Source: Turritopsis dohrnii (lineage: Eukaryota; Cnidaria; Hydrozoa; Anthoathecata; Oceaniidae). From it: a DNA stretch of 64,000 bases. The position numbers and the translations under genes were made by a program. The stretch lies in assembly GCA_027922465.2 (NCBI GenBank), contig BQMF02000059.1, forward strand, positions 372,001 to 436,000. Direction: 5' to 3'. Shown here one piece after another: positions 27,457-59,829 of the stretch. The notes below the pieces were generated by a model. The model had not been told where the DNA came from. It made no database searches and saw nothing but the letters and a program-made list of their open reading frames with translations. Numbering within the stretch: position 1 is the first letter of the stretch; each line of letters starts with the position of its first letter.

Positions 27457-27709
27457 AGACGAAAAATGATTTTCTTTAAACCAAAGATATCGTTGGACAT
27501 TACCAAAGAGCAGGTAAGTCTAGAAAGCCTATGTTTCTTCATAATTACTTTGGTCAAGATTTTCGCATTATCTTTGTCGAATATTATCATTTAAGGTCAT
27601 TTTTTACTGCAAACAAAACAATTTATCATTTTGAATTGATTGTAACCCCTTTGAATCTTGACCAAACTAATTTTCTTCTAGAGATCGCTGGAATATACAT
27701 ATTGTCGCC

Positions 27710-28813
27710 ATGAACTATTTGACGTGCGTGTTTCTCGTTGCCATGCTTGCTGTTATAAATGTTGACCAGGCAGAATCTTCATGTATATCATCCATTTCAG
27801 GTGTGTTCATTGAATATTTTAGATACATGCTACGTTTTGTACCAGTAGGGATTTTAGTCCGACCTTTATTTATTTGGCAATGTGTAAAGTTTAAAATTAA
27901 ATGGTATAGTTTTTGTCTTATTCTTTCATTGCATAACTCAACATTGAACAAAAGGTATCTCCTCCTATGAAATCAAATATTGATATTCAACATTTTAACA
28001 TAAACGTTCCACTGTTTTCTTGGGATTGAAACTCATTACAAGCAATTTTCTCTGCATTTCTAAATTATATAACTGAGACAGCGTGGGTATGATGGCCAAT
28101 ATCTATAATAGTACAGACAAACGACAGCGTTATATAACAGAATGAGCTTTGTAGTAATAAGGACTCCCGAAAAATAGAATACCGTAAAAACAGGTACAGT
28201 AAATTTAACAAGGGAAAAATTTACACGAAAACCCTTACTATCAGTTCCTTTCACTTTCTTGTGTGTTTGTTTGTTTCTCGAATATTTATACAGGATAAAA
28301 ATCTGCAGTAGTATCATATTCACATATATACACTGTTATCTTAGATGTCCTGTGAAATAAAAGATATAAAATGAAGGTGTATGTAAAACCCTTATCACGA
28401 ATTGATGTTAATGTGCCATATTTCAGCACCTTTGTCCATATGGACAGCGTTTAGATGTGTTACATAGTTTCAGGGAAATTATTGAATGAAAGAAAAATGT
28501 CCAAATAAAGAGTGAAGCTCGTATGGAAAGCTTACCTAAAACATGGTAAATAAACAAGAATGTGAGAAAGGTGTTTTGTGATATTACTTCAGCTGATTAC
28601 GATACGTTAAAAAGTTACGTTGTTTTTGAAAATGTTTTTTAATCTATTTTAGGAGCTGTTATTCCGAATGTCATGAGTTTGGGTGGTGGAATGTGTGAAT
28701 ATTGCGATGGTGGCGGTACTAGATTCGATGCTTGTGGCAAAAGAAAACGAGAATTTCACGCCAAGCTTAACAGATTCAATTATAACAACTTGAACAACTT
28801 ATGGAAGAAATAA
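27710..28813 (+). CDS. Small secreted four-cysteine protein A (two coding exons)
   Basis: Exons 27710-27800 and 28653-28813 join in phase 1 inside a glycine codon, giving 83 residues. Residues 1-21 form a signal peptide, MNYLTCVFLVAMLAVINVDQ plus A. The mature part has four cysteines in the pattern C-x19-C-x2-C-x9-C, with CEYC as the central pair and RFDAC at the fourth. A KRKR run follows and then a basic, asparagine-rich tail ending WKK. An AATAAA signal starts 4 nt after the stop. Genes B (44.3 kb) and C (50.2 kb) share the cysteine spacing, the F-x2-C motif, and the intron position and phase. I do not recognise the family. It could be a peptide toxin, antimicrobial, signalling peptide or matrix component; nothing in the sequence decides between these. 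Confidence 0.8.
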
Positions 28814-28822
28814 AAGAATAAA

Positions 28823-31456
28823 TGTAAACGCAAAACTGATAGTATGTTATTACGAATAAAAAACAACCTGAAGTTGTCTTCAAATTTTGTAGTTTCTGAT
28901 GAAATGACTGATGATTTCAACAAAACCCACAAAAGTATTTGTTTTCAACAGATTTTGAAGGAGTTCTGATTTGTTACTACCCTTAGTGTGAAATAACAAT
29001 GCTGTAACACTTAGCGTAGTAGGGTCGAAGCTTAATGCAATAACGACGCTAAATGTAATAAATAAGCATCATAAAAGACAGGAAATCAGCGGCAAGTATG
29101 CGAAATGTGCAAACAATATTTTGACAGGAAATGATTGAAATAACTAGGAATTGAAGCAATCGTTTTGCAGACAAAACGTCTTAAGTCAATGTTCATGGGT
29201 TAGTAGTTCACTTTTGCGAGTTTAATTACCTGCAAAACTGTAGTTGGAAACCGTTAACACCCTTTAATAGTAGTCTACCAGAGAAAAATGCAATGCTTGG
29301 ACATGTAAACCCAATGCTTTATTCTTCCTTGGTGAAGCAAATACGCAAATACTCCCTAACTATGAGGTATATGAACAAGAATTATTTATCCGAAATCAAA
29401 AATGAGATACCGTATTTCTTAAATTCCAACTTTTGGATGCGGCGTTTAATGGAGGGCGGCGTTCATAACAGGGGGGCGTTCATAAGAGGGCAACATTTAT
29501 TACAAAACAAAAATTGAGATAAAAGCAGAATTTAAACAATGTTTTCTTTTCCTTTAAAACTTTACGAAAGATTGTAGGAAATTGATGTAAACAAAAGATA
29601 TATTCACATTACACAAAAATTTCGGAGAATATCAATATCACTGTGGCCATCCTCTTTCACGACATGAAAAGTATCTTAGCTTTCTCATAAAATCAATGAG
29701 CCTGTTAAACGAAAAACATTAATGTAAGAGTGCGTTTACATGAGAGCCGTACTGAACTCAAACCTGTTTGAAATCGACATTCTGTTTACATGATAAATTT
29801 CGATACGGTCTTGGCGAGTAAAACACGAAAGATTTACTAGTTTCTATCTCGTTGATTGTACGAATCTCCCTAATGAGACTGGTTCAAGACTGTGCCACTC
29901 AACAGTAACTTCGGAGATTTTAAATCTTTTGTTGTACCAAAGAAACATCATTACTTTGCACGCTTATTTCAAGTGTTGATGATTAGCTTGATGTAGTCCA
30001 AATTACACCCAAATTTCCTTTTCTTGAGCAAATTATGAAAAAAACGAACAATACAAACTCAGTATAGTCAAGTTCACTGTGTAAAAAAACTGAACTTTTT
30101 GAAAATTTTATAGACATTACATTTTCTTTAAACTGCAGTTCAGAACATGAAAAAAGCTCTGGAAAATACTTTTCGTGACTTCCCTCTCAGAACCAAGTGA
30201 TTTTCCTGTTTTTGGCGTGTTTTACTTTTCAAATTCTAAAAGTTCCCAAGTTTTCCAGCAGCAGTTTTCGAGTAATTAGAAGTCAAATTTACTGGTTATC
30301 GTGCGTATCGATTTTCATCGTATGTTCTCGATTTTGATTGTTTCATTAGTAAAATTTCAAAACAAATATAAGGATTTCCAAATTTGTAAGATTAGTTTTG
30401 GTTGAAAGTGCTTTTCATCAACAATCGTGCAAATAACGAGTCTGACTTGGGAAAATATCGAATAACCTTTATAACTGCATAATTTTGAAGGAGAAGGCAG
30501 AAAAACTAAGGAATATTATATTATTTACATCTGTGCTGCTCTATTAAGTAAATGTGTACATACTTAAACTTTCGCAACTAATATTCACTTAATGATTGTG
30601 TACAAAATACAAAACAACAACATTTCAAGGTCTATACTCTGGTATTTGGATTCACAGCATGTACACAGTGTAAGTAATATACGCAACGAAATCTAAGTAC
30701 AGGAATATTATAAAGAACAAACTAAATTAACAGTATTTACTATAACCAGTGGTAAGAAAGAACCATGAAAGCATGGAATTAATAGTTGACAGATGAAGAT
30801 CCCTGTTTCCTGTACGAAAAGCCCTAAAATGTAACAACACTAACTATACCAATACTATATAAACACTCCCAAATGAACATAACTCTGATTCAGAACATCT
30901 TCTTTTAATGTAACTTTGATAATCTTTAATTGTTTCCTGGAAAATAGGACTTTGTACAAAATCTTCAAAGAAATTTTCATCAAACTTTCTCTCATTGCAC
31001 CAATAAATTCAAATCTTTCTTCTTTCTTTTCATCATCTTTTGAAACCAAGTAGGATTGAAGTCATAAACGACTAAGAGCTTTGAACATCAATTAAAGGGT
31101 TCAAACACTAGATTATAATGTTTACTAGACATCACACTTCGACATGAACCAGTTGCATAAACACCAGATTCCAAAAGTATATGCTACAAACAAATTATAT
31201 AACTTCATACTTAGATTCAAATTTAACCATTTTAAAAGAAGGTAATACAGTTTCAATGCTAATGGTAAAACATCACCTGTGGAGGAGTGATTTGAGTATG
31301 ATTTTCAGAAAAAAAGAATAACAAATTGCATTCATACAATACAGTTGTCAGTAATGATCTAAAAGAAAATGATTAATGTCACAGGTGCATTTATGATAGG
31401 TAGGTATGAGATAGTTGAAATGTCAGTAAAATTATATAATTGTGCATGAATTGTAT
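28823..31456. other. Flank of gene A, no supported gene
   Basis: Holds a copy of the AATAAACGCC-type repeat (about 29,405-29,500) and the direct repeat 29,896-29,976 (copy of 26,621-26,702). On the minus strand at about 30,826-31,000 there is an open frame with protein-like composition, including FDENFFEDFVQSPIFQETIK, ending at a stop near 30,826. It may be a lone exon but has no recognised family. Confidence 0.4.
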
Positions 31457-31462
31457 TAAAAC

Positions 31463-31960
31463 TACGGTGGCCTATATGTGACATTCTCAAAAATAAAAAA
31501 TGTAACATGCAGCAGTCTTTCCCGAATGTTATAACATGCATCATGCACGTTATAACATGCAGCAGTCTTTCCCGAACGTTATAACATACATGATGCACGT
31601 TATAACATGCAAGAGTCTCTCCCGAACGTTATAACATACATGATGCACGTTATAACATGCAAGAGTCCCTCCCGAATGTTATAACGTTCGGTAATTAATA
31701 GTTACCGAATGTTACAATTTGAAATGCGGAGCGGAGATCACGTTATAACATGCAGCAGTCTCTCCCGAACGTTATAACATGCATCATGCATGTTATAACA
31801 TGCAAGAGTCCCTCCCGAATGTTATAACGTTCGGTAACTAATAGTTACCGAATGTTACAATTTGAAATGCGGAGCGGAGATCACGTTATAACATGCAGCA
31901 GTCTCTCCCGAACGTTATAACATGCATCATGCATGTTATAACATGCAGCAACCAAACGCT
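31463..31960. repeat. Left terminal inverted repeat with internal modules
   Basis: At least six copies of a 30-60 bp unit built from GTTATAACATGC, GCAGTCTCTCCCGAACG and a CATGATGCATG palindrome. The block AAATGCGGAGCGGAGATCAC occurs twice (31,72x and 31,865). Matches the right end (36,531-37,063) in inverse orientation. Confidence 0.9.
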
Positions 31961-32151
31961 ACGACTAAGCATGCGCGATGAATCCATGAGCATGCGTATA
32001 AGCTAATGTTTTGGTGAAACGTTTGGAAGACATTATGTTTTAATCGAGTTAACAGCCATGTTTTGATTTATGGCTTTCTTACTTTGTTTTTTGATGTGAC
32101 GAATTTATTTCTGCTGTTTTTTACTTTTTTGAAGGAAATCTCAACATCATT

Positions 32152-33373
32152 ATGGATTTTACTTTAATACTGATGATATGTTTGTTGTTTGGTTTGGTGA
32201 GCGCTGTAAATCCACACCATCTTCTTCATGCGGAAATCGATGATATCATTAAGGAATACTTTCGTGCAAACTATCCATATGCAGAAATATTACACATTCT
32301 TGCAACATTTCATGGCATAAAGATAAGTTTACGTCAGCTACATCGGTTGTTGAGGAAACTTGGCCTGTTTAGGAAAAAGCAAAAAACACCTATAAACGAC
32401 GTTGTTTATTTTATTCGAAAGAACATTGGCACGTCGTCGTCAAGTTTAGGTTATAGAGCAATGCATTGTAAGTTGAGAGAAGATGGATATATTGTGGACA
32501 AAGAGACCGTTCGCCTTGTGTTAAAGGCACTTGATCCAGAGGGTGTAGAGGAATAGATCAGCAAAACGTCTGAGAAGGAGAACGTACAGATCCATTGGGC
32601 CGAATTATGTTTGGCACATAGACGGCTACGACAAACTGAAACCATTTGGACTTGCAATACACGGATGTGTTGATGGTTTCAGTAGGAGAATCATGTGGCT
32701 CAAAGTGGCTGAAACTAATAATAACCCTGCGGTAATAGCACAATATTATGTTGGTTGCATTGAAAGTTTGAAACTTGTTCCAAGGCTGATAAGAGCTGAT
32801 AGAGGTTCAGAAAACATCAAAATTGGTGGACTGCAAGGATATTTTCACAGACGGTCAGGTGTAAGTCGCAGTTTCCAATACGGTTCATCGATAAACAATC
32901 AACGGATCGAGTCATGGTGGTGTCAGTTACGAAAGAGTCGTTTGAATTGGTGGATAAACTATTTTAAGGACATGAGAGACACTTTAAGTTTTGATGCCAG
33001 TTTAGATCATCATAAAGAGTGCATACGTTTTTGCTTCATGGATATTATACAAAAAGAACTTGACGAAACTCGTAGACTTTGGAACAATCACCGAATAAGA
33101 TATAATCGGAATTCTGAATGTCCTGCTGGTCGTCCCGACATTCTCTATTTTGCTCCGGAAACGGTCAACGGTAGAGATGGAGGTTTGATGATTTCTCATG
33201 CAGATATTAATGCAGCAAAAGATCAATGTGAAAGACCGTTATATTTTGGGTGTAGGGAGGAATTTCTACATTTGGCTGCTATGATAATGCAAGAAAATGG
33301 GATCAGTGTTCCCGAAACAGTCGATGATGCAAGAACATTGTATGATCTAATACTGGAAGAGATTGATAACTAA
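32152..33373 (+). pseudogene. IS3EU transposase (one frameshift, catalytic residues kept)
   Basis: Two frames make one protein: 32152-32556 (134 codons) and the next frame from about 32,555 to 33373. The first part carries helix-turn-helix segments, including the IS3-type LGYRAMHCKLREDG block that precedes the catalytic core. The second carries the retroviral-integrase-like DDE fold: first Asp in WHIDGYDK, second in RADRGSEN, Glu in NNQRIESWW. These are the three expected acidic residues. A single-base shift at GAATAG (32,551-32,556) separates the frames, so the product is truncated unless frameshifting, a small intron or a sequencing error applies. The first ATG gives an oddly hydrophobic N-terminus (ILMICLLFGLVSA), so the true start may be later. 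Confidence 0.85.
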
Positions 33374-34830
33374 CTTCGATAACTGCTGTACTACCTTAAT
33401 TGAAACTGTTTGTTTGAAATAGGTTTTTACTTGAATTATGTTTAAATACGGAAATGTGATTATAGTGTGATTATGGGTTTCTCATGTTCATGTACTCTAT
33501 AAGACTTTTCATATAGCGATTATTTTTGGTTAATTACTACAAATGTAGTCACGATGTAGTTTTGCGTGTTGGAGTTTCATGTTGCTGCGTAACAATCTTT
33601 TGTGCAGAACTTTCTTGCCCTCGCCCCGAATTCCCAAACATCTTTTAGAAAACATTGGATATCGGTTTGAATTTCCGGGGTAAATCTCCAGGTTAACCTT
33701 CGGATTCTTCTTGTTGAGCAAATATTTTCACATCAGCTTGTGATCCCTCGATTCCTCGAAATAGCTGTTTCTTTTAGAGGGTCTTAGTCTTCGGTTGATT
33801 TTTCCGAAGCGCTAGTGACGTTTTGCAAAGGATTTCCCGTGTATATCGAGAAAAAAAGACCTTCATTGGTTTTACGCAAAGGAGATTCGAACCGAGACTA
33901 TATTCGTGTTTGATAAAAACAAAATAGCTTTGCCGAACTCGAAACCGGCAACCGTCAATGTCTCATTGTCACCACGAAGTAGAAAATGACAAGAGTAGGC
34001 AATCTATAAACTATATAATAGCTTTCAAGAAACCGACAGGGAAATTATGTCAAGCTTTTTGGAGGAGTTGTCGTAAGGCGTTCTGGGTGATGGTTGTATT
34101 TCGTTATTTCTACTAATAGTTAGACTTTCAAAAATTTCTTGTGAGAAGAGTGAGAAGGTTTGGTTTGGATATTTATATCGATTCATGGTGATCATTCATA
34201 ATTTAGAGATTATAAGACAGTCAAGGATTTTCCGGGATCCGGGACAACTTTTATATATATATTTTATAACGGAAATTATAGGACAATTACAAGACTGATG
34301 AAAATTATCGAATATCTGCAGTCAGGTAATCACATTTAATCCACGCAGTTAAAACACAAGAAATATATCTAGGACATGTGTTCAGAGATACAAGATAAGG
34401 GTTCAGAGGAATTTTAACATATATCAATACAGGATGAGCCCAGATAAATCATCGTATGTTCAAACCGTATAATAATCTCTGAGTGTATAATACAATAAAA
34501 GCGATTTACAAATGTAAAATAACCAAGATATTGTCTTACCACAATCACTGTGTCAAAACAAAAACAACGTAACACTAAAAAGGAAAATGCTTTCCAAAAA
34601 TGTTAAAGAATCGCATTTCATACAAACTAGACTTAAAACAACTGTTCAGTCACGACACCTTTAAAAGGTCTTTTACGAAGTATATATATATCAATCACAA
34701 TGAACAAAAGTTTAAAATATAAATAACATCTTTAATGACAATTGAAAACATGTTTTTGCCAACCTTCCGAAACATAATTGTAGAATAAAATACTATAAAG
34801 AGTTTATAAGAAACAGTCATTTTAAGCTGT
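33374..34830. other. IS3EU interior between its two convergent genes
   Basis: Non-coding by eye: probable 3' UTRs of the two element genes, which point toward each other. No repeats or motifs of note. Confidence 0.5.
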
Positions 34831-36122
34831 CTATATATCTTGCACACTCCACAGTTCTTCACAGTTTAAGAAACGGCAAAAGTTTTCTTTTAGTTCTGTA
34901 AACGAAGAAAATTGCCTCGGTAAAAGTAAGATTTTGAAACAGGTTTGAGCGGATGGATGCAAGTAATCTTTAGATTGGTTCACAAAATCAACTTTAATTT
35001 TAGTGTCCGGAGGTAGATTCGATGAACCTGTGATAAAGCGCACAAACGACAAAAGCTCTACTTGAGTGCAGCTTCTAATGTAGCAATATACCCACGTGAC
35101 AATTTTTTGCTCTTGAGAGCTTTTTTCTTCGACTTGTATACAATTTATCAATGACTCACTTGTAGGGATGAGAGTGCGGTATAGTCCATCAATCATGCGT
35201 AAACTGACTTTATTCCAAAATGGACCCATACCAGTAACAATGGCCTTCATCGAATAAGTGGCGTTTTTTATTAAAGCAAAGTTTCCAGCTTTTTCACAGA
35301 GCATGTTGACGTTTTGGGCTGTTGGCATTTCATAAACCATGTACTCAGAAAGCACATTCATCACCCCTTGTTGATGCTTTTCTATTCATCCACCCAAGAC
35401 CAAACTTTCTGAACTGAAGACAATTTACTTTTGGTAGCTACTTTTGAGCCTTTCCTACGTTCAACTCCAGATGTCTTTATGAAATTAATGAGTTCCTCTT
35501 TATCTACTTCACTTTTCTCACTGCACAAAGATTTTAAGGTCACTATGTCTCCTTTTCGAACCAGACCTAGTTCTACTAGGTCGTCTGTTTTTGCATGACA
35601 AATTGCAGATCTGTCCATCTAAAATCAATTTGACTAATAATAAATATAGGAAATAACAGTAAAAATGATGATATTAACTGATTTTCCTGTTGTTGGTGAT
35701 AGGAACTTAGAATTCTGATGATTACTAGCAAAGCTTTATTTACTTATTTACTCTTGAAAGTGTATAAGAAGTTTCTTATCAAACAAACAGAGGCATTTTA
35801 TAGTCAATATGTGTAGTATACAGAGCTCCTTATTTAAATGATAAAGGGCTTTCTCACAGTTATAAATATTGTTACAAAACAAATGAAATACACAATTTCA
35901 CAAATAAAACATGTCTATTGTCTCCAATTACTGTGTGCCTTCTTCAAGTTAAAATGAAAATGAAAATGGAGAAAAATTATTCAAAATGCGATTTGAAATA
36001 AGTGTTTCTTTGTTTCTTTAACAAATGTTTTTTCTTTGTTAATTCGTTAAATAGTGATCATACATACCTGATTTATCCTGAAGTTTTGCACAACAGATGG
36101 CTCAACCCCTCTGTTTTCAAGC
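34831..36122 (-). pseudogene. SAM + HECT-like protein carried by the IS3EU element (frameshifted)
   Basis: Three blocks. An ATG exon (36066-36122, 19 codons) ends at a GTATG donor and is spliced to 35618-35382 through a TTTTAG acceptor. Together they look like a SAM domain, with DDLVELGLVRKGDIVTLKSL as its characteristic end. After a frame change near 35,380 the frame 35364-34831 encodes a HECT-type ubiquitin-ligase C-lobe: FVRFITGSSNLPP, then the catalytic cysteine context AQTCFKILLLP, then an ELKENF-type end. Such accessory HECT-like genes accompany some IS3EU elements (recalled, not searched). The upstream frame ends in GAATAG, the same hexamer as at the transposase shift. The cysteine is kept, so the ancestor was probably active. 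Confidence 0.7.
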
Positions 36123-36530
36123 ATTCAACAAACCTATTATGACAACAATAACAAATACATGCATTCAGTAAAACTTCGATACAATTTCAACTACAGTAAG
36201 TAAAAATGGAATAGTACTTTTTGTTGTATAACAAAATTTTGTTATATAAATCCCATCAGCTGTAAAACGATTTAATTTTTAAATCAAAATCATTATAAAC
36301 AACATATCAAATCAAATAACAAATACTCTGTTGTCGAACAAAGGAAACTTCAATAATAGACCAGATAACAACAAATACCCAAAAAGTTATACTTCAAACT
36401 TGGTGGATGATATCATATTAAGCTCAGCATCTGCTGTACAAACATAAAAACGAGGGATAAAATATTCATGTAGCTACAAACCTCTTCAACTTCGTCCGCC
36501 ATCATGTATGATTCAATATTTTGCCCCACG

Positions 36531-37063
36531 TGTGATCTCCGCTCCGCATTTCACATTCTAACATTCGGTAACTATTAGTTACCGAACGTTATAACATTCT
36601 GGAGGGACTCCTGCATGTTATAACGTTCGGGAAAGACTGCTGCATGTTATAACGTGCATGATGCATGTTATAACGTTCGGGAGAGTCTGCTGCATGTTAT
36701 AACATGCATGATGCATGTTATAACATTCGGGAGACACTGCTGCATGTTATAACGTGACCTCCGCTCCGCATTTTAAATTGTAACATTCGGTAACTATTAG
36801 TTACCGAACGTTATAACATTCGGGAGGGACTCCTGCATGTTATAACGTTCGGGAGAGACTCCTGCATGTTATAACGTGCATGATGCATGTTATAACATTC
36901 GGGAAAGACTGCTGTATGTTATAACGTGCATGATGCATGTTATAACATTCGGGAAAGACTGCTGTATGTTATAACGTGCATGATGCATGTTATAACATTC
37001 GGGAGACACTGCTGCATGTTACATTTTTTTTATTTTTGAGAATGTCACATATGGGCCACCGTA
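36531..37063. repeat. Right terminal inverted repeat with internal modules
   Basis: Mirror of the left end: repeated GCATGTTATAACGTGCATGA, CATTCGGGAGAGACTGCTGC and a GGTAACTATTAGTTACC hairpin, ending at the complement of TACGGTGGCC. It starts at the GTGATCTCCGCTCCGCATTT block. The 400 bp just inside it (36,123-36,530) is the likely promoter side of the SAM-HECT gene and shows nothing else. Confidence 0.9.
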
Positions 37064-37102
37064 TAAAACCAGTACAACATGGTAAAATAACTGATGAGTC
37101 TA

Positions 37103-37177
37103 ATTGTAATGTGTCTTTGTGTATCTTATACTACTTATATATATTTAGAGCCCGATCTGAAAAACAAACATACAATA
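37103..37177 (-). repeat. 3' LTR (75 bp)
   Basis: Identical to 41836-41910 over the whole length. Very short for an LTR, with a TATATAAGTAGTATAAG core on the minus strand that may serve as promoter. Confidence 0.85.
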
Positions 37178-37294
37178 TGCCCAGGGGTATATCTTTCCCC
37201 CAAAAAGAAAAGAACAAGAAGAGAAAAAAAAATGTCTAGTTGGGATGTCTGTGTGAATCACTAGTTTTTGTCTAGTTTTTTTTTTTTTTTGTTA

Positions 37295-40200: not shown

Positions 40201-41515
40201 TTGACGGCCTTCTGTTAAACGTCACGATTCCCAGCTGCTCTGCCAGTCTTCCTGACATGACCGGCTCGCAGTCCTCATTGATAATGTACCATTCTGTGCT
40301 CACCGACCTGCTTCCAAATGTGACTGCACATCTTGCTTTACCCATCACATTGATAGGCGCACTCTTGTACGGCTTGATTTTTGATTTAGTTGGGATCATT
40401 CTGTCAGCTATTCCCCATTTGTGAGCATCGTTGGGGCCACAAACACATACTTTGGCCCCTGTGTCAGCTAATATCTTCACTAGGCTGTTGTTAACGACCA
40501 CTTCAACTTCATAGTCGCCTGGTACTGCTGAAGTATAGCTAGTTTTGAGTCTGAATATGTTCACATTGTAAGTCTCCTTCTCAATGACGTCGTTCTTGGC
40601 CTCTTCTTCTGTGTCTAACTGTTTGACTTCTTTAGATTTGCACACTTTAGCAAAGTGCCCTTTCTTTCCACAGCTACGACAATTTGCTGATCTGGCTGTG
40701 CATTTCTGTACATGCTGTTTGATTGATCCACTGATATTGTTTCCACAATAGTAGCAGCGTGCCTTATCTAAGCCTTCCTTCTTTAGGCTCTCTTGTCGCA
40801 TCTGTTTGAGGGAGTACTTCCCAAGCTTATTGACACTTGAGTCACCAATTTCTGCAGCCCCTTTGTAGGCGTTTTCAATTCGAATTCCATTTTCGCGGAG
40901 GGCCTTCAATTCCCATGCATTCTTGAGCGCTTCCTGTCTGATGTCTTCATTATGGGTCCCAATCACAATCTGGTCCCTGATTGCTATCAACTCTGCTTCA
41001 CAGTATTTGGACTTGCATTTGAAGTTACAGTGCTTAGCCTCTTTTTCAACTCGGATTGCAAAGGCCGCGAAAGACTCATCTGCCTCTTGGCTCAGTGCAC
41101 GGAATTGAAAGTTCTTCAGCGTCAAGTTTTGGGTAGGAGCGTAGTATTGCTGCATTTTTGTGACGAAAGCTTCCCATGCAACTTTCTTTCTTGCTTCTTG
41201 ATCGGGCTCTGCAATCTCCCAGTCTGAATACAGTCGTATGGTACTGTACATTCCAAGTAGCTTGGCCACCTTGTCCTTGGCTCTAATATCATCTCTAATC
41301 TCGTCGTAGTCTTTGATTGTTGGCTTTTTATCATTTACAAGTTTCCAGCGTTCCAGTGCACTGTCCATAGCCACCTTTGCAGGCTCTGGATACGCAGCTT
41401 CATAGCGCAGCTCAAATGCCCTTAGAAACTCATTAAAGGCTTTAAGGGTGTTTTCTGGATGTTTATCTGGGTCAAAACATAGCGTTTCTGCTTGTGTGGT
41501 TGCAACCTTGGCCAT
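37295..41515 (-). CDS. Gag-Pol polyprotein of the Ty3/Mag-like element
   Basis: Single uninterrupted frame of 1,406 residues starting at ATG 41515. Order: gag-like region (about 1-250); CCHC zinc knuckle C279-x2-C-x4-H-x4-C292; aspartic protease with DTGA at 351-354; reverse transcriptase about 500-690, with FSKMDLKSAFWQL at about 577 and HDD at 641-643 where YVDD-type motifs are usual; RNase H from about 780 (FVDAHQDGLGA, TDHK); integrase with an H-x3-H and CSC zinc-binding part (1008-1044) and D1072, D1127, E1162. All catalytic acids are present. The C-terminal tail is acidic and ends in a basic patch. Gag and Pol are fused in one frame, so no frameshift signal is needed. The shorter open frames on the opposite strand are shadows. 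Confidence 0.95.
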   Translation of the reverse strand: MAKVATTQAETLCFDPDKHPENTLKAFNEFLRAFELRYEAAYPEPAKVAMDSALERWKLVNDKKPTIKDYDEIRDDIRAKDKVAKLLGMYSTIRLYSDWEIAEPDQEARKKVAWEAFVTKMQQYYAPTQNLTLKNFQFRALSQEADESFAAFAIRVEKEAKHCNFKCKSKYCEAELIAIRDQIVIGTHNEDIRQEALKNAWELKALRENGIRIENAYKGAAEIGDSSVNKLGKYSLKQMRQESLKKEGLDKARCYYCGNNISGSIKQHVQKCTARSANCRSCGKKGHFAKVCKSKEVKQLDTEEEAKNDVIEKETYNVNIFRLKTSYTSAVPGDYEVEVVVNNSLVKILADTGAKVCVCGPNDAHKWGIADRMIPTKSKIKPYKSAPINVMGKARCAVTFGSRSVSTEWYIINEDCEPVMSGRLAEQLGIVTFNRRPSIFRPVNMIQTTEKDEIQNIVTAYPEVFQGIGKLKNHQVRLYHDPEVKPVAQPPRTVPYHLQERVEDALQDMLDKDIIEEHPPTEPALWTSNIVIVPKDDGDIRVTIDARNINKAIQSCNAPIPKQEDIKARLGNAQVFSKMDLKSAFWQLELHPESRVLTTFHGRGKLYRYKRLSMGLKPAQGELSAALQPLFQGVKDAHLIHDDLIIAAENMEIHNSTLREVLTILMDNNLTLNPNKCVFGVDEIRFWGLIISKEGVRPDHIKIEALQGLQPPESKSELVSFLCMMQANSEFISNFAKKSAPLREMTKANRLFAWDKEHQQCFDYLIREFSKSTLLQFFDLKKKVFIFVDAHQDGLGAILAQGDNTIDAKPVAIASRTTSETEKRYPQIDLEAMAVNFGLKRFRNYIVGAPEVITVVTDHKPLCSIFNGNRNGSIRAERIKLTNQDIQYRVEYRKGSQNRSDYISRHPGQNNEVGDEFNNLLYMLHGVPVMDCIGMAAIAEETTKDQILNKLRRIIRNGQNIPKQAERDLLRFKEILPEMSVTGNGILLKGDRLILPMSLQDKALELAHSGTHAGESGMARRLRYHFFFHDMGTKIKEFVKRCSCYSFVDKKTSEPSMVHKVPDKCWDTVAVDLFGPMPSSKHVVVVQDLKSRFPAAKLVASTKAEKVLPALTEIYDNFGYPDIQINDNGPPFSGAKMEKFAENRNITLRPVTPHHPNANPVETFMKTLGKAFKAGQEQKQGEGETLRKALHSYRHTPHPATGIAPTDMMFRDGTRGLFPRKGLTKSKIEEAKQKDVEGKAHIQHLTNASKYRQKDTFVVGNLVLARNFKRCSKFDPIFEVEPYKVIAIDSEVGKVYVERFGRIVIRHPDDLKHYTRVEEAVSTQTKQQVMSKQDRREDDIEEDDEECSFVDRGIQQEHYHQNTNDTSAESQLDVEQDKNETANDALRRSTRAKKQNSKYYNADFVN

Positions 41516-41553
41516 CTTGAACCCCGTCGAGAATACAAGTTAAATAGCCTTAC

Positions 41554-41755
41554 CTACTCTGTCCAGGGCTAACCTGGTGTGATAAACGCTTCAGTATGCT
41601 AGACTGACAGATCTTCAGGAAAATGCGTTCTTGCCAACCACGTACAACGTTCACAGTAATCCCCAGGAAAAATATAGAGAAAGATAACGTACCTACTGGA
41701 TCCAGGGCTAACCTGGTATGATAAGAGCTTCAGTACGAATACTGATCTTCAAGCT
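41554..41755 (-). repeat. Duplicated block in the retrotransposon leader
   Basis: Two related blocks of about 50-60 bp, about 136 bp apart, start near 41,554 and 41,690. They share CCAGGGCTAACCTGGT, then TGATAA and GCTTCAGTA. The shared core contains the palindromic pair CCAGG/CCTGG. They lie in the untranslated leader between primer site and gag. Confidence 0.7.
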
Positions 41756-41822
41756 TGCTCTACAGTTCTCATTCACGCTTCCAAACCAACAGGCTGGATG
41801 GTGTCTTGTCACTCAAATGTTT

Positions 41823-41835
41823 ATCCTCGTCGCCA
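41823..41835 (-). promoter_or_regulatory. Primer-binding site (tRNA-Ser)
   Basis: On the minus strand TGGCGACGAGGAT directly follows the 5' LTR. It complements a tRNA 3' end reading ATCCTCGTCG plus CCA, which matches the acceptor stem of animal tRNA-Ser(GCT). Mag-type Ty3 elements are known to use tRNA-Ser. Confidence 0.8.
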
Positions 41836-41910
41836 ATTGTAATGTGTCTTTGTGTATCTTATACTACTTATATATATTTAGAGCCCGATCTGAAAAACAA
41901 ACATACAATA
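41836..41910 (-). repeat. 5' LTR (75 bp)
   Basis: Upstream LTR of the minus-strand element, identical to the 3' copy. Confidence 0.85.
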
Positions 41911-42280
41911 AGTCTAACTGCCAAAATTGAGATTTGCTGAATCAAGATCTCTAAAAGAGGATGAGAGTCAATCATGGGGTTTATTCTGGTCAAGAAACTC
42001 TGATATATTAAGTGATACGTTCTTTCTCAAAACAAATCTTGGTATAGCAATGTCAGTGTCTACTAACACATTTATTAACAGAAACAATATTCTTTGCTGA
42101 ATTAAGGACCTGTGATGGATTTTGTATGTAAATACCACGAGTGACATGAGTTGTGCCAGACCTAATTAATGTAGGTTTACGACGATTATATACTAACCCG
42201 GGTAAAATTTTTTACCGAGTTTTACTTCGAAAAAGTAACAAACCAACGTGATGTCAACTTCTCAAATATTATGAATGGTC

Positions 42281-42337
42281 TTTATAGGGACAGCACACCT
42301 TTATAGGGACAGCACACCTTTATGGGGACATCACACC
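42281..42337. repeat. 19-bp tandem repeat, three units
   Basis: Units TTTATAGGGACAGCACACC at 42281 and 42300, and a variant at 42319 with two changes. The 370 bp between the retrotransposon and this repeat holds nothing else. Confidence 0.9.
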
Positions 42338-42397
42338 TTTACGAGATTCCTGGACTCATGTCTTTCCATTTCAACCAGTTCAAGAAGTGACTTGTAG

Positions 42398-42706
42398 ATG
42401 TATGTGTCAAAACTGGGAACAAAAATGTCAAAAGTCAAAACTATAAAAGCACATCCATTAAAGTTTTTGGAGAAGAAGAAAGAGGAAAATGGATTGCCTA
42501 TTGAGCAGCATTCACTTGTCATTATGGAAACATTTAAAGGACAAGATAACGACATACTCAAAGAATTCTGTTCTACAAATAGGTGCGAACTTGTGATAGC
42601 GCCTCATAACTTAACGAATAAGTTCCAACCATTGGATTTAAGTGTTAACAAAGCAGCAAAAGCTTTTATCCAAAATCAGTATAATGATTGGTTCTCTGAT
42701 TGGTTT
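42398..42706 (+). pseudogene. Pogo/Tigger-type (DDE_1) transposase fragment
   Basis: About 100 codons match the middle of DDE_1 transposases: IEQHSLVIMETFKGQDND, then IAPHNLTNKFQPLDLSVNKA and a QNQYNDWF-type stretch. The usual second catalytic Asp of the IMDxFKGQ motif is Glu here, and the sequence before and after is unrelated. It is therefore a dead fragment of a Tc1/mariner-pogo element. No inverted ends were found. Confidence 0.75.
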
Positions 42707-44039
42707 ATACATCCTATTTCATTTTCATGTTTATTTTCTTTTCATGTGTTTTATTACATGAGATACCGCTTCTTAAAAACAGTTTGTTTAACATGGTGTA
42801 ACAAAGGGAAAATATAATCAAGGTCTTCAAGGAGATAAATTTTCATACAATTGAAATTGTCTATCATGAAACTGAGGCTAGGTTGTGAATGAAATAACCA
42901 CTTTTGTAACGCAACTGCATGTCTTATTAATATTTAGTTGGTTGCTACAATGACCGTTTCTCGACTTTTTGTAAGAGCCCCTTCACAATAAACGGCCCCA
43001 AAATTCTGAAATTTTGTAGCAAGCACCCCAGGCATTTATTAAAAGTAATTTTTTTTTTTAATCGATATATTTCCTGCATCCATCAATATGGTTCTTCTTA
43101 CAGAGAAAGCGTATAGGATAAAATATATATGCATGGTGTTACGTATAATGTATAAAAACGTATAATAATAAATATTACGGACATAACTTATACTAAATTA
43201 GATTAAATTAAGAAATAGGCTAACAAGTGTGGTAGAAGCGTTGGTTGGGAGTCGCAGTAAGTTGGATAATGAAGCTATGTAATACGATATTCTTTTCCAC
43301 ACAAAATTTTTATACTCTTGTTCATGAATGCTAACATTCCTATTGCATCCTTTTTTTCTGTATTGAGTTGAGTAAAAGGTTTTCAGTTTAACCTTCAAAA
43401 GGTCTCTGTCCTACTTTTTTTAAACTTGTTATCTCAATGCTATTCAAAGAATTTTTGACTGTCAGTCTCCAACATGACTGTGGTCATATGATCATTATAT
43501 TGTTGTCAAAAATTGAACATTTGTTTCCGAGGGGAAGTAAAACCACAACTGAAACTGAAATGTTGAAATTTTCCTCATTTTAATAAACTCAGAATGACAG
43601 GAAGGCATCAAAAAATACTTTACCCGTAAGATGACGCATTTGAAATATTGAAAATATGTGTTGAGAATCTATCTAGAAAATACATAAGTTTTATGAGCTG
43701 TTTCAATTGAAATTTTAAACGCAGAAGCACATTGCCACTTGGGGATTTTATTGTTAGTCTACTACGTTCAAGTGTAGTAAACTTTTGTTTCAATTTACTA
43801 GAAGCTAAATAAAACGCTTTATTTCCCGATACAGGTGCATTACGTATTTGTTTATATATTGTACTAAAATATCCTCAATTCCTCTTTTCCGATCAAACGT
43901 CACATGTCAACATGGTAGGGGGTCGGTGATAAGGAAAGAAATGCGGTAAAAATATCAAGCTTGAATTAATAAGGAAAATTTAGAAATGATAAACGCCAAT
44001 TCCAAACAATATGTATTATCTATAAACAAAACATTAAAA
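42707..44039. other. No gene recognised
   Basis: AT-rich. A short inverted pair, TTGCTACAA near 42,940 and TTGTAGCAA near 43,013, could be a MITE remnant. Confidence 0.4.
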
Positions 44040-44079
44040 GGAAATTAATTAATCATAAGGGAATTTCAGCAGTATATAA
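44040..44079 (+). promoter_or_regulatory. Gene B promoter: shared box and TATA
   Basis: GGAAATTAATTAAT (44040-44053) is identical to 27389-27402 before gene A. TATATAA follows at 44073-44079. A non-coding first exon probably ends at ATAG|GTAAG (44,145/44,146), and the acceptor GATTCTAG ends at 44,302, 22 bp before the ATG. This is the same layout as gene A. Confidence 0.6.
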
Positions 44080-44324
44080 CGTGGTCACTTATATGATCAA
44101 CCAAAAGTTTAGAAAGTGACTGGGCGCTACAACAAGAAAGCATAGGTAAGAATATTGCTTCTTAGATTTGTCCGCATTCTTAAAAATTGTAAAGTATTTT
44201 TGAAACGAACTGTATTGAAACGTTTGTTCTCGCGGCGTTTAGCATGTACAAGATGGGACATTTACGATACTTATATAAACAAGTTTATTAATTTGATTCT
44301 AGAGGGAAGATAAAATTGAATAAA

Positions 44325-44852
44325 ATGAATACTGCTAGTTTAATGATTTTGGTCCTGTTACTGGCTACAATATTCCAAATAAATGCAAGATATCACTACT
44401 GTTTAGATTGGAATGGTAAGATATTCATGAATAGTAAATTACTTATAAGGCCAAAATCAAAATCTACATTATTTGGCTTTTTTATTCAGAAACCCATGTA
44501 TTTTTCTTTTTCATCGGCAAAAACTTTTCTGGTGTTTTATAAAGATAACCTAATTACTTTAGAAAGTACTTTATTTCCATAGAAGCAGGTTAATGATGAA
44601 TCTTAAAACCTTTCCATCATATCAAAATTGTTTACAAGCTGCTTGAAATTTCGTCTATATATTCTTCATTCCGTTGCATTCTTTACAGGTAAAATAATGA
44701 AATACGGCGAAGAAAAACGAATGGGAGGAACTGAAATCTGTGTAAGCTGTTCCTTTCGTGGCCTGAAATTTTCAAGCTGTTCAGAAATTATGAGAAAACG
44801 AAAAGACATGTGGAGAGACAGTTACTATGACGACGATGTTGATGATTTTTAA
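44325..44852 (+). CDS. Small secreted four-cysteine protein B (two coding exons)
   Basis: Exons 44325-44415 and 44689-44852 (GT/AG) join in phase 1 in a glycine codon, giving 84 residues. The first coding exon is exactly as long as that of gene A (91 nt). Residues 1-21 are a signal peptide ending FQINA. Mature cysteines follow C-x21-C-x2-C-x9-C, with CVSC and KFSSC. After the fourth cysteine come a basic RKRK stretch and a strongly acidic, tyrosine-containing tail, RDSYYDDDVDDF, which contrasts with the basic tail of A. The segment GKIMK right at the intron is matched by GEIMK in gene C. Function unknown; tail divergence on a fixed cysteine core suggests diversification of a secreted ligand or defence peptide (inference). 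Confidence 0.8.
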
Positions 44853-46205
44853 CCGAAAATAAGCTTTTATTTTGCAATGTACAGTAGTGTTTCGAAAAAG
44901 TTGGCCATAAATGAGCATTTCCCATAAAAATTCCCTTGAATAAACGGCGCATTATATGGACGCTTATTCGAAGTATTAGCGTACGTGGCTACAACGAAAT
45001 TCGCTCTCTATTTAAAACTTAGAATTTTAAAACATCATCGGACTTCGAGACATCTTAGAACTTTTTACGGAGATGTTTGGGCAGGTTACATTAATTACTT
45101 TCGCCTTTTCGCTATAATGAATTTTGTAAATAAACAGATGTAGGATTATACAAAAAGTTTATTGAAGTGAAATATTTTTTTCAAACATTAGTTCATGTAA
45201 CTTTATATTATACATTAAAACCATGCTGTTTAGTATCCGTAGAATTGACCACGGTATGGTATGGTCAAACTCTAATACTCTGACGTCTTCTTAATTGATC
45301 ATAAATGCGTAAGCAACATAGTGTAGCTTATTTAGTGTAATCCAATTGAATCCTGGATCTTTCGAAGCTCTATGTAGAGAAACCAAATGTTCTCGTTATC
45401 TTAAAACTACATTTTTGTCAAAAGCACATAGGAATTTCAAAACCCTATTTTATTAATTATCTTAAACGTATTGAAATTATAATTAGCTACGGCTATTGTT
45501 GTGCTCGTTATAGTTTACTTTGTAGAGTTTTAGATGCATACGCAATACAAGAAGGAAATATAACTTAGAATGCTATTCAATTCTTTCAAACAATTCCTTT
45601 TGTCAATGACATCACTCAAAAGGATTTTCCCATATTCAATGTGTCATGTATGCAGAGTTTTACTAAGAGGGGCGAAATAGGTCACGTGTGTTTTTGAATT
45701 ACAGCACCAAAATTCAATTTAAAACGAAGAATAACAAGACGACGACAAGAGGGTCGAAAGATTTCGCTTATATTTTTAAGAATAGATAACTCCCATTCTA
45801 AATACATACTCGAGTGTTCATGGGGTTACTGAGCGGAATTTATAATAAACTGGCTCTGCATAATCTGCGTAACCTCCATGTTTTTGAGCCTAAGTTACAC
45901 TACAGATGTCATATAATGTTTTAAAAAATGTGTAAACAAAACTTTATTAATAAAAACATCACAAATTGAAACTAAAGAAATATACTTCCATGAGCTGTAA
46001 CCATAGAAAGAACTTTAAGTTGGTAAGTGCAGCCAACAATAACTTTCGCCGTGCATAGAGAGATAGCCAGATAGAACGGCGCCGAAACCAATTACCGTGC
46101 TTATCGAAATCTAATAACCAGAGACATAAAATCATAAAAAAGACATTATATGAACGGAACATTTTTTTAGTTAATTAAAAATACTGGATAGTAAAAAACA
46201 ACGTG
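44853..46205. other. No gene recognised
   Basis: Contains one short AATAAACGGCGC-type repeat (about 44,938-44,980). Otherwise AT-rich without frames of note. Confidence 0.4.
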
Positions 46206-48723
46206 ATTGTCTGAATATTGTAAAAAGTAGAAAGTACAATTTCAAAGATGCAATACGAATCTTTCCGACGTTGTTGTGTGTTGTGACGTTTTGTTTCCTG
46301 GCAAAAATGCCCGACAATCATCATGACGTCTCCTTAAAATGAAAGTTAATGCGTCAAATATTAAGGTAAACTGTTTAGATTGATCGATCCGTAACAAAGC
46401 CGTTGACATTACAAAATCTCATTTTCCTTCCAGTTAGGATTTTTTTTAAAGTGAAGTGTTTTTCGATGTAATGTGACCCCTGAGAAGCAGATATTACAAC
46501 AAAATTAACTGTGTCATATGTAGCTATTTTCTAGTAACGCATACGTTAACAAGACGTTCCAAGTAATGATATACTTGTAACGGACAAGGTTTTTATTTAA
46601 AAAACGTCTTCAAGACATAAAATTGTGTATCTGATGCAAAGATGTTCGTTTTCAATTTCAGTTGCTAATAACGACAGGTGAAGAGAAAAACACAAACAGA
46701 AATATTTGTTTATAAGACAAGAGGATCTTAATACTCTGCGAGCATTAACAACAACGACCATGCGCCTTTCTGCACCCTTTTACATTAGCTGGCGCTAATG
46801 CAGCTTTATTTCCGCCAATTTTGTCTTTTACTTCCACTAGACGTCAGATCAACACATTGTAGGATGACAAATTACACTTAATGACGTTTTCTGCTGGTAC
46901 TTCTTCAGACCTTGTTCATTTATGTAATGATAACAAAAACAATATATAACAAACCCAAATCAATTAAGGGTCCTTCGAAAACAACATTAAGTTAAGAGAT
47001 CAGAAATCAGTAATTAAACTCTAAATAACAATGTCTGTTTTGTTTTGTTAATGGAAAACCCCAGTGTAGTACCCCAGTGTAGTACCCCAAAAATGGTTTA
47101 TGGGAAGAAAGTCGACATTACCTTTCATTGGTGTTGTTCTTGCTGCTAGTAACTTTAACGTATTTGGAAACAAAATACCTCAATTTCCACCAGGGCTTGT
47201 GTGCAACTACACGGTGGACAAAAAAAGGAGAATTTCGTTGACAGTCTGCTACGAGTTCAAAATTATTGATTTTCAAGAAAACATTTCACCATGAAAAAGC
47301 TGAAAAACGTCCTTTCTAATCTGTTAAAGAGTGTTGACATCGGATGCTAACTGGACAAAATCCTTATTGTAAGTATGGCGATCAAAGGAAATTTTGAAGC
47401 ATATCACCGTCACATCAATGACAAATAACAAGGTCGTTTTCTATTGCCATTTCATCATAACTTGTTCAACTATGTAGCGGGAAATGTACTTGTAAATGTA
47501 AAATTGTACGAGGAAACAGAAACAAACATGTTTACCAGCTGCTAAATGGGCAATGTTACCTATTGATAATAAAAACAAGATAAAAAACCTAATAGAATTA
47601 TGGTTTTTTCCAAGACAATAGTAAGATTAGAAGAAACAAAGTAATCAATAATTAAATCATTAGTTCTGAATAGCAATGTCTATTTTGTTGGACAACAAAA
47701 TTTATGGGAGAATTGACAGGTACGTCAACAACACGTCAACTTTTACGGCTATTCCCTAATTTTTTTTTTCCGCATACTTTAGACAATGTTAGATAATTCA
47801 ATCATAGATTATATCGAGGATAAAAGAAGCCTATGGTTTTACAGAGTCTTCTTTGATTTGATTCAAGTGTTGTCAAGATTTCTGTAGCCATATGTTACCT
47901 ACTTTTGGCTTTTAATGTCTTTTGTTAACATCAAAATGTAACATGAGTAAGTGCAAAGTGAAATCTTTCGTTTGTCTTCTTCATGTTTACGCGGTGAAGG
48001 AAACTTTGCAGACGGGATTTTACAAAAATCTAATAGATTGCCTGAGCATTGCAAGAAATAGAAGGTTCAATTTCAAAAATGCAATAACGAGCAGATAATT
48101 TAATATAAACAGGTATCACACGATTGCCTTTGCCTTCTGTGGCCTTTTCATTGATCACTAGCTTGTGGCCCTCTTAACTGAGCTGTGAGAAGCCATTCGT
48201 CGCTTTATTGCGTCTCCACATTCTAACTGCAGGGGTAACATCTTTATTATAACTATGGCGATCAAGAGAAATTTTGCAAAATGTTTTATCTGCAGGTCAT
48301 TTAATGTGCCCGCCAAATCTAACAAAGGCCCGAACTAAGCAGGAAAGTCTGATAGACTTTTCGATCACCACATTCTAGGATGACGAATAACAATGTCGTT
48401 TTCTGCTGCTTCTTCTTTTATGCATTTTCTATAGCGAGAAATGAATTTAATAAAAATGTAAAACCAGGAAACATGAAATGTTTACTAGCATCTAATCGGA
48501 TATGATATCGAACTAATTGATAAAAAAATGGGAATAATAAACCTAATGAAATTATGACAATAGTAAGATTAGAGGAATCAAAGTAATCAGGAATTAAATT
48601 ATTACTTCTAAATAGCAATGTTTGTTTATTTGGACAGCAACATTTTACTTCAAGGGTAGAGCCCTAACATAAATTTAATGGAGGATTGACAAGTAAGTCA
48701 ACATTGCCCTTTACTGCTATGAG

Positions 48724-49170
48724 ATTGTTCACAAATGACGTCAACTTCTAGCGGGTTGTGGGGTGGGGTGGGGGGTATGCTGAAGTTGACGCTTGTTGAC
48801 GTGATACTACTGTTGACGTCAACCTTCACAATTTTCAAAACCTTGATTTTTCTAATCATAAGCTACACTGTTGTAATCTTGATGTAATCCTTGTGAGTCC
48901 GTCCGTGTTGCTATTGTTGGCTTGTTCATTCGAAAATCTTTTTGATCAATTCCACGAACCTAAAACAATTCCCTGCCAGGTTCCTTCAGTCAGCGCCAGA
49001 AAGATTAGAGACAAAGGAAGGAAAATTTGGTTCTTTCTTTCAAGCAAGGGGGGAGTCTCTTCCCAAAAGATGACGTCAATTCAGGGGGAGGGGGTAAAAC
49101 AAAGTTGACGCAGGTTGACCGAGGGGAGCCAAAAATCTTGTAGAAATGGTTGACGTCATTTGTGAACAAT
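48724..49170. mobile_element. 447-bp MITE inside the tandem array
   Basis: Perfect inverted ends of 22 bp beginning ATTGTTCACAAATGACGTCA. The interior contains further GTTGACG motifs and a G-rich run (GGGGTGGGGTGGGGGG). Comparison with the sister array unit near 49,965 shows that it interrupts a previously continuous sequence. Confidence 0.85.
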
Positions 49171-49344
49171 TTTTTATTGCTCTTGCATACCGATAATGTA
49201 AAGGAATCTTCCAACAGAATATCTTTACATTCCTGTTCGCTAATCTGTTAGTCTGTGTTCCGCATACTTCAGACAATTTTAGATTCGATTCCATAGAGTG
49301 TTCTTTTGATCTGTTTCAATTTTTGAAACTACTGTTGGCTCTCA

Positions 49345-49475
49345 ATAGACCTTTTTATAAATTACGTCATAACAAACATGGCCTCGTCTCGATGCTTATA
49401 GATTATTATGTGCTTAACCTTAATAAAGAATTTCGAGACTTTGCTTGTTGTGACGTAATTCAGGAAAAGGTCTAT
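49345..49475. mobile_element. 131-bp MITE inside the tandem array
   Basis: Inverted ends beginning ATAGACCTTTT and sharing AATTACGTCA and AACAA. It is absent from the sister unit at about 47,900, where flanking sequences equivalent to both sides are adjacent. Confidence 0.75.
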
Positions 49476-50116
49476 ATCTTTCGCTATAACATGAGTAAGT
49501 GCATAGTGAAAACTCATTTGTCTTTTTGTAGACAGAATATTACAAAAATCTGATTCTCTGGAACATTGCAAGAAGCAGAAAGCACAATTTCAATATGAAC
49601 ACATTCTAGGATAACGAATATCACTTAAAATCGCTTCCTGCTGCTACTTATAAAACGAGGATACTCATGTATCTTATATCGAGAAATGTATTGAAATAAA
49701 AAGGTAAAACGAGGAAATTGGAAAAACAAGTTTATTAGCTGCTATTCAGATGATAGTTACTATTGATAGAAAAATAATACAAAAATTCTAATAGGATTAA
49801 GGTTCTTACCAAAACAACATTAAGATAAGGAAAATAAAATTAATCAGTAATTAAATAATTAACTCTAAATTGTAATGATTTGTTGGACAGCATCTTTCAA
49901 CCATAGCTCCACAGTGCCCTAAAATTATTAAGAGATGGTAGTTAGGTAACTTTAAACAGCCTTCCCCTGCTGTTGTTCTTACATACCAATAATTTAAATG
50001 TATTTTCAAACTGAATACCTTGAAGTTTCTGTTCTATGTTCTTCCTGTCTGTCTTGTGTTCCGCATACTTTAGACAATTGAAGTTTTCATGCGTCAATCA
50101 CAGATTATATTGAGAG

Positions 50117-50124
50117 TATAAAAG
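50117..50124 (+). promoter_or_regulatory. TATA box of gene C
   Basis: TATAAAAG, 68 bp before the ATG and within the CCGCATACTTTAGACAAT-containing promoter unit duplicated upstream. No UTR intron is evident, unlike genes A and B. Confidence 0.65.
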
Positions 50125-50184
50125 AGGCTTTTCATCACTAAATAGCCTAACTTGTTTTAATCTGAACTGAAAGAAGCAGAACAA

Positions 50185-51060
50185 ATGGCTGCCACAAGAT
50201 TACTGATTGTATGTCTCTTGATAACAACCATACCACAAATCAATGCAGAAATTAAAAAAGGTGAATGCATTGACACATACACAGGTAAGCCATACCTCTT
50301 GTAAAATCTTCCTTCATTTAGGTGCCTAGGAGACTTAAATTTTACAATTTTGGCAAAAAAATTAATACAGACCGTTTGTTTGTCAATAGGAACCTGATGC
50401 TTCTCTGTGAATGAAAAATATCATAATACATATGATAAAATATTATATTTTATATTTACTATAATATGTTTTTGCGCATTATTATGAGGCATTGTTTACT
50501 GGACTAACTGTCACAACACAAGCATTTATAGAAGCAAACTTAAAGTATAAACATAATTTGTTAAAATTACCGATTTAGCGTTTCCAAAGAAAAAAGCCGA
50601 GTGCTTATCACGAGTTACAGCGACTGACTGCATACTGGCCTTCGGGCAAGTTAGAGCAATGCTATACGTATCTCTGGCGGTAAGTCAGCTACTAGTTGCA
50701 AGTCGGCGGGCGGAAGAACCAATCATTACGGATGGAAACCCAAGGACTAAAAGCTCCTGTTACTTACTTACACGTTTAAAATCCTTATAAATATTTTTAT
50801 CAACTGTTTAATGTCATTGTGTTCATTTATGTATTTGTATCTTGTTCTGAACAGGTGAAATAATGAAGCACCTCGAAGTGAAACAGCTACAGGAAGGCAT
50901 ATGCTACTGGTGCAATAATCGAGCTCTTTCCTTTAATGCATGTCCAGCGGTTTATGAAAAAGTTGAGAAAGAACGGGAAAAAATGGAAGAAAAAATTGTG
51001 AAAGAAATGCTCAATCAGCCAAAAAATCAGCGAGATTATGAATTTTTTTACGGAAAATAA
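50185..51060 (+). CDS. Small secreted four-cysteine protein C (two coding exons)
   Basis: Exons 50185-50284 and 50855-51060 join in phase 1 in a glycine codon, giving 101 residues. Signal peptide 1-21 ends PQINA, echoing FQINA of B. Mature cysteines follow C-x21-C-x2-C-x9-C with CYWC and SFNAC. The C-terminal part is a long charged, probably helical Lys/Glu segment (KVEKEREKMEEKIVKEM) ending FFYGK. The intron holds a 5'-truncated SINE (50,621-50,772). Paralogue of A and B by cysteine spacing, F-x2-C motif, intron phase and GEIMK; the tail is again unrelated. No recognised family. Confidence 0.8.
50621..50772 (+). mobile_element. tRNA-derived SINE, copy 2 (5'-truncated)
   Basis: Matches the body and TTACTTACTTAC tail of the SINEs at 22.9 and 60.8 kb (for example CTGGCCTTCGGGCAAGTTAG) but lacks the tRNA-like head. 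It lies in the intron of gene C, in the same orientation. Confidence 0.85.
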
Positions 51061-59824: not shown

Positions 59825-59829
59825 CTTTG

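Follow-up and report, generated by a model that had tools for sequence, protein, structure and literature searches.

Cnidarians have many lineage-restricted secreted peptides, few of which have been traced from genome to function. Among them are the antimicrobial peptides of Hydra, which are small, lineage-restricted and clustered and which derive from larger precursors (PMC10945409). Here we describe a locus of the hydrozoan Turritopsis dohrnii with three neighbouring genes, all on the plus strand, that encode predicted secreted proteins with a fixed core of four cysteines. The genes, which we call A (27710–28813), B (44325–44852) and C (50185–51060), lie in a window of 64,000 nucleotides (assembly GCA_027922465.2, contig BQMF02000059.1, positions 372,001 to 436,000 of the forward strand), in which all positions given below are counted. 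They present a compact case: one locus, three paralogues, a fixed core, differently charged tails and intact genes on what we take to be both haplotypes.

Of the Hydra peptides, the periculins and arminins resemble the genes described here in small size, a signal peptide (predicted here), lineage restriction (probable here), arrangement in tandem clusters and the similar exon–intron structure of paralogues, but are confined to Hydra and number about ten to thirty paralogues versus the three genes here (PMC10945409). The cysteine pattern of A, B and C appears to differ from theirs. Set against families of the periculin or arminin type, the locus is a single three-gene cluster that has no relative in the collections we searched, outside which cnidarian proteomes lie. 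The sea anemone PHAB (boundless beta-hairpin) peptides are likewise small, secreted and cnidarian, with two disulfides, as predicted here; however, they have 17 residues and occur as repeats on one transcript, whereas the core of A, B and C spans 34–36 residues and is single-copy (PMC6627431). No PHAB chain appeared in two PDB sequence searches. The SCRiPs (small cysteine-rich proteins) of corals and anemones have eight cysteines, a framework that is not found in A, B and C, with four in the mature part. They are small, cysteine-containing, secreted and restricted to cnidarians (PMC2652719), and in this they resemble the present proteins, which are predicted to be secreted and may likewise be lineage-restricted. 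Finally, cnidarian neuropeptide precursors resemble A, B and C in having a leader and basic residues that may be cleaved, and A and C also in having Gly-Lys signals of the amidation type, but the peptides they yield are mostly short, linear and often repeated, in contrast to the one long core with predicted disulfides found here (PMC11087051).

Gene structure and paralogy of A, B and C

A sequence-only reading of the window had proposed that the three genes share a 21-residue signal peptide, a C-x(19 or 21)-C-x2-C-x9-C core, an F-x2-C motif at the fourth cysteine and a phase-1 intron within a glycine codon, and that their tails are unrelated. Recomputation of the coordinates upheld this description. 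The proteins are 83 (A), 84 (B) and 101 (C) residues long, with core cysteines at residues 25, 45, 48 and 58 of A (x19-x2-x9), 26, 48, 51 and 61 of B (x21-x2-x9) and 28, 50, 53 and 63 of C (x21-x2-x9), and F-x2-C is present at the fourth cysteine of all three. In each gene a coding intron (852, 273 and 570 nt in A, B and C, respectively) with a GT donor and an AG acceptor splits a glycine codon in phase 1, leaving the first cysteine upstream and the other three downstream. All three begin with a leader that is hydrophobic (Kyte-Doolittle mean over the best 11 residues, 3.1–3.2) and whose 21-residue length is judged by eye. Under the −3/−1 rule for signal-peptide cut sites the leader of A may be cut perhaps two residues later than position 21, because a cut after residue 21 would place an Asp at −3. 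The leaders of A and C each carry one additional cysteine outside the four-cysteine core. Beyond the core the tails differ as had been described, with net charges of +7 in A, −3 in B and 0 in C.

Smith-Waterman alignment of the full-length proteins gave scores that were reached by 4 of 5000 shuffles for A–B and by 0 of 5000 for both A–C and B–C; when the first 21 residues were removed the corresponding counts were 39, 1 and 0 of 5000. Judged by these alignments and by their common leader, cysteine spacing and phase and place of the intron, A, B and C are one paralogous family that is joined through C, since the A–B similarity is weak alone while A–C and B–C lie beyond the shuffles, and A is its outlier. 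Profiles built with one gene left out and run over 1593 six-frame pieces recovered the omitted exon as the best non-training match in four of six tests (E 0.0014, 0.0023, 0.047 and 0.064), although in the third of these an unrelated match followed closely at E 0.064. In all three pairs the nucleotide differences are most frequent at third codon positions, then first, then second, the pattern expected for coding sequence under constraint. Across 244 kb around and including the window, a scan for first exons of this type (hydrophobic start, phase-1 donor after G) found seven distinct places, A, B and C among them, and a scan for C-x2-C-x6-hydrophobic-x2-C found five, of which three are A, B and C. 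At the level of the genes, then, there is good evidence that A, B and C form a genuine family, if a small one, of four-cysteine proteins that are predicted to be secreted.

Within the coding intron of C lies one copy (50618–50771) of a roughly 150-bp interspersed repeat; further copies occur at 60781–60935 and 22866–23007, and the copies are 90–92% identical.

Table 1. Positions of coding exons and promoter features of genes A, B and C in the window
Feature	Positions	Strand	Remarks
15-bp motif AGGAAATTAATTAAT, A promoter	27388..27402	+	starts 61 bp upstream of TATA
TATA box of A	27449..27454	+	sequence match only
Putative 5′ untranslated region (UTR) intron of A	27514..27681	+	GTAAGT...TTCTAG, splice consensus only
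Gene A coding exon 1	27710..27800	+	leader, Cys1, first base of Gly codon
Gene A coding exon 2	28653..28813	+	Cys2–Cys4, GKRKR, basic Asn-rich tail, stop
15-bp motif AGGAAATTAATTAAT, B promoter	44039..44053	+	starts 34 bp upstream of TATA
TATA box of B	44073..44079	+	sequence match only
Putative 5′ UTR intron of B	44146..44302	+	GTAAGA...TTCTAG, splice consensus only
Gene B coding exon 1	44325..44415	+	91 nt, length equal to A exon 1
Gene B coding exon 2	44689..44852	+	Cys2–Cys4, RKRK, acidic/Tyr tail, stop
TATA box of C	50117..50122	+	sequence match
Gene C coding exon 1	50185..50284	+	
Gene C coding exon 2	50855..51060	+	Cys2–Cys4, Lys/Glu-rich segment predicted helical (both low-confidence models), ...FFYGK, stop

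Promoters and the second assembled copy

The predicted 5′ ends of A and B are alike: the TATA box is followed by a brief first exon without coding sequence and then by a putative intron that ends TTCTAG|AG ahead of the ATG, and if spliced accordingly their TATA-to-ATG distances are almost the same (93 nt for A, 95 nt for B). In C the TATA box is 68 nt ahead of the ATG and, going by consensus, there is no 5′ UTR intron. The longest common substring of the A and B promoters is the 15-bp motif AGGAAATTAATTAAT; a shared substring of at least 15 bp was seen in 0 of 2000 random window pairs. The exact pattern GGAAATTAATTAAT-N17-47-TATAWA has three matches in the 436-Mb genome, namely A, B and the copy of B on a second contig, C232, while its backward control has none; because the pattern was derived from the A and B promoters, this shows rarity and not function. 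There is a likeness, and no more than that, between the motif and AT(A/T)ATT(A/T)AT, the cnidarian POU-IV element described from Nematostella (PMC8846589). Exact matches to that element number 58 across the 244 kb; in the 500 bp upstream of each of the three TATA boxes neither strand has any.

Upstream of C, the stretch 46205–50128 holds degenerate tandem self-copies, pieces of which are 68–96% identical. The C promoter region is duplicated there at 47768–47830, with a partial copy at 49254–49284. The stretches behind these two copied promoters resemble each other (0 of 300 shuffles), and no coding-exon remnants were seen beside them, the scores obtained in five comparisons being reached by 19, 207, 283, 287 and 133 of 300 shuffles.

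On contig C232 all three genes are present, intact and in the same order. Long matching stretches are 96.7–99.9% identical to the window, and we read the contig as the other haplotype, although it might instead stem from a recent duplication. The two copies differ at 3 of 813 coding nucleotides, all synonymously, such that the three proteins are identical; by chance, three synonymous changes out of three would be expected with a probability of 0.008–0.017. The introns and flanks compared (2790 nt) carry 34 substitutions, an excess over the coding exons (Fisher p 0.03), and all insertions and deletions seen where the three genes were compared fall outside the coding exons, including insertions totalling 41 nt at 44260–44264, inside the putative 5′ UTR intron of B.

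The starts of A and B are 12.6 kb apart on contig C232 versus 16.6 kb in the window. Missing from the contig are 10.4 kb between the two genes (31462–41908), which in the window contain a DDE/integrase-type transposon open reading frame (ORF) and a long terminal repeat retrotransposon; the contig for its part carries some 6.4 kb of different sequence near window position 30070.

Search for relatives in the genome and beyond

Whole-genome protein searches (E ≤ 10) returned four matches for A and seven each for B and C. These were A, B and C themselves, their copies on contig C232 and two weak extras, both rejected on reading: at C22:411504 (E 2.2) the locus sequence has no CxxC at the match, and C79:1132127 (E 0.2) is by eye a zinc-finger-like ORF. 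Because few candidates are scored in this search, and because query A missed B and C, a fourth gene elsewhere, as diverged as these, could have escaped it. A profile search of the 244 kb found no member beyond the three.

No Pfam family matched A, B or C at E ≤ 10. In a collection of 5.8 billion proteins, an alignment of the full proteins yielded 14 candidates and one of exon 2 only, made to fit exon-sized gene predictions, yielded one; none of these was at E ≤ 10. A profile search of PDB chains gave ten sequences at E ≤ 10, the best of which, ZNF622 (whole-chain E 0.0036, best stretch alone E 0.18), is an intracellular zinc-finger protein and was judged a chance match; the others (E 0.13–2.6), among them Arc (E 0.13) and lufaxin (E 0.24), were rejected as not significant. 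A separate PDB sequence search gave 20 sequences, of which the best, SERCA (E 0.4), was likewise rejected as chance. In viral contigs 36 stretches fitted a pattern and none was confirmed, and phage records searched with B gave no match. Six core hexapeptides had no occurrence in a text search of 5.39 million papers, and among the matches listed in a search of the literature on cnidarians there was no fitting four-cysteine framework. The proposal that the family is unrecognised thus held up, in that neither Pfam nor the PDB and protein collections supplied a convincing relative. To call it unrecognised is safe as far as these comparisons of sequence go; the collections are no proxy for the proteomes of cnidarians, so that novelty to science is no more than a possibility.

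The genome also contains minicollagen ORFs, in which domains of the form CxxxCxxxCxxxCxxxCC flank a collagen stretch (three of four loci translated), and these mark the host as a cnidarian. The GFP family, tried as a further marker, gave no match here but also none in any of 14 control genomes, and is thus uninformative. In one minicollagen-like ORF (G000:C17:345926–349084) a single collagen stretch is flanked by four cysteine-rich domains.

Predicted processing and possible roles

Each of the three proteins has basic residues near its core. In A the sequence GKRKR, a signal of the amidation-plus-dibasic type, directly follows the fourth cysteine. In B, RKRK begins at the fifth residue past that cysteine and there is no amidation signal. 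In C a KK is followed by Gly-Glu and the first cysteine, and the protein ends ...FFYGK with a terminal GK. In Nematostella, precursors are cleaved C-terminally at KR, RR and KK, and GR or GK was taken to mark an amidated end (PMC11087051). We infer release of the core because the sites in A, B and C match those cleaved in these precursors. AlphaFold2 gave a weak hairpin followed by helices for C exon 2 alone (predicted local distance difference test score, pLDDT, 70; predicted template modelling score, pTM, 0.32) and helices only for an alignment of the three exons (pLDDT 62, pTM 0.37), models too poor to settle a fold.

We tentatively favour, with a probability of about 0.4, the reading that A, B and C are a lineage-restricted family of secreted peptides with a disulfide-closed core that is trimmed at basic residues and serves as an extracellular effector. 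The hydrophobic leader would direct the products to secretion, the four cysteines would likely be closed by two disulfide bonds and trimming at the basic residues beside the core would release a short, rigid peptide. A and B would thereby lose their variable tails, either as waste or as peptides in their own right, while the long charged tail of C, predicted to be helical, would stay attached to the core. The released peptide would probably act outside the cell on microbes or prey, as an antimicrobial or venom-type effector. Splicing, secretion, disulfides and processing are all inferred here from the gene sequences.

A competing proposal is that the core, or a product amidated at its C terminus, serves the animal as a hormone-like or paracrine signal, which neurosecretory cells would release and a receptor would read. 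In outline C resembles a single-copy prohormone, with a leader, a short stretch and KK ahead of the peptide and with GK and a stop behind it, A has C-GKRKR, the kind of site that is cleaved in Nematostella (PMC11087051), the two assembled copies have zero amino-acid differences and just three genes were found. On the other hand, nothing links A, B or C to neurons, the motif of A and B being merely similar to the POU-IV element without an exact match, the cores are too dissimilar for one obvious common receptor and B is without an amidation signal; we consider a ligand possible but on balance unlikely. The effector is slightly ahead of the ligand, because the paralogues are very different and several of the known secreted families that only cnidarians have are effectors (PMC10945409, PMC6627431). 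The proposal that a conserved scaffold with fast-changing tails is typical of secreted effectors or ligands remains plausible for this locus, but the proteins are identical on both assembled copies, and the basic and Gly-Lys sites allow an alternative in which the tails of A and B are cut off. It is less probable that the proteins remain unprocessed and are structural components of mucus, cuticle, capsule or mesoglea whose cysteines cross-link chains. Minicollagens, which are capsule proteins, do cross-link by cysteines (PMC2687796) and are encoded in this genome, and a role in a matrix would suit proteins that are small, secreted and variable in their charged tails; however, A, B and C have few cysteines, in a fixed set of four, the spacing of these differs from the CxxxC pattern of minicollagens and the proteins have no repeats or low-complexity blocks. 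Rather improbable, too, is the reading of the core as a cut-down version of an extracellular cysteine domain that is already known. The von Willebrand factor C domain (VWC), the single-domain VWC and beta-microseminoprotein have a C-x(about 17–21)-C-x2-C step, and the spacing of the first three cysteines and the Gly after the first look alike in A, B and C. Yet none of them appeared among the Pfam results or the ten PDB profile matches, and the C-x-C step expected past the third cysteine is missing. Chance likeness among unrelated ORFs we regard as very improbable: although the A–B similarity is weak alone (39 of 5000 shuffles with the leader removed) and both profile tests that left A out missed it, the three genes agree in leader and in the phase and place of the intron, A and B have in common a promoter motif and a predicted 5′ UTR intron, and on the second copy the frames are intact and the coding differences synonymous only.

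Several observations count against the effector reading, or against the family and processing on which it builds. Proteins that are identical on two copies, and few genes, are not what it would lead one to expect, three being a small number for an expanded toxin or antimicrobial family. By itself the A–B similarity is weak, and in the two of six profile tests that omitted A, A was not among the five best matches. The 15-bp motif was not found in the C promoter, the A motif carries a G-to-A change at 27390 on the other haplotype (the core AAATTAATTAAT is kept), and the motif test was post hoc, its pattern coming from the very promoters of A and B. The processing sites are a post-hoc reading as well: by the same logic a KR within the loop between the first and second cysteines of B would be cut, and C has no dibasic site past the fourth cysteine. 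The exon-2 models are poor, disagree on the hairpin and are unusable for a fold search, and expression, secretion, disulfides and cleavage are all read from the genes. We find it doubtful, moreover, that the locus represents a cnidarian-specific two-disulfide class in its full form, which would combine a new framework, C-x19/21-C-x2-C-x9-C, with single-copy precursors, basic cleavage, amidated A and C, a core that is kept while tails are swapped and an A/B motif that stands before no other TATA. Were the core processed and amidated, a disulfide-rich class would join the mostly short linear cnidarian neuropeptides; were it an effector, a new scaffold would be added.

Scans of the window for tRNA genes and Rfam families found nothing, and a neighbouring ORF at 53020–53604 gave 19 candidates, none at E ≤ 0.001. 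On the minus strand, 57158–59890 holds an open frame of 911 residues with leucine-rich repeats and EGF domains that appears receptor-like, and near it, at 55086–55439 on the same strand, is an ORF with a PAN domain.

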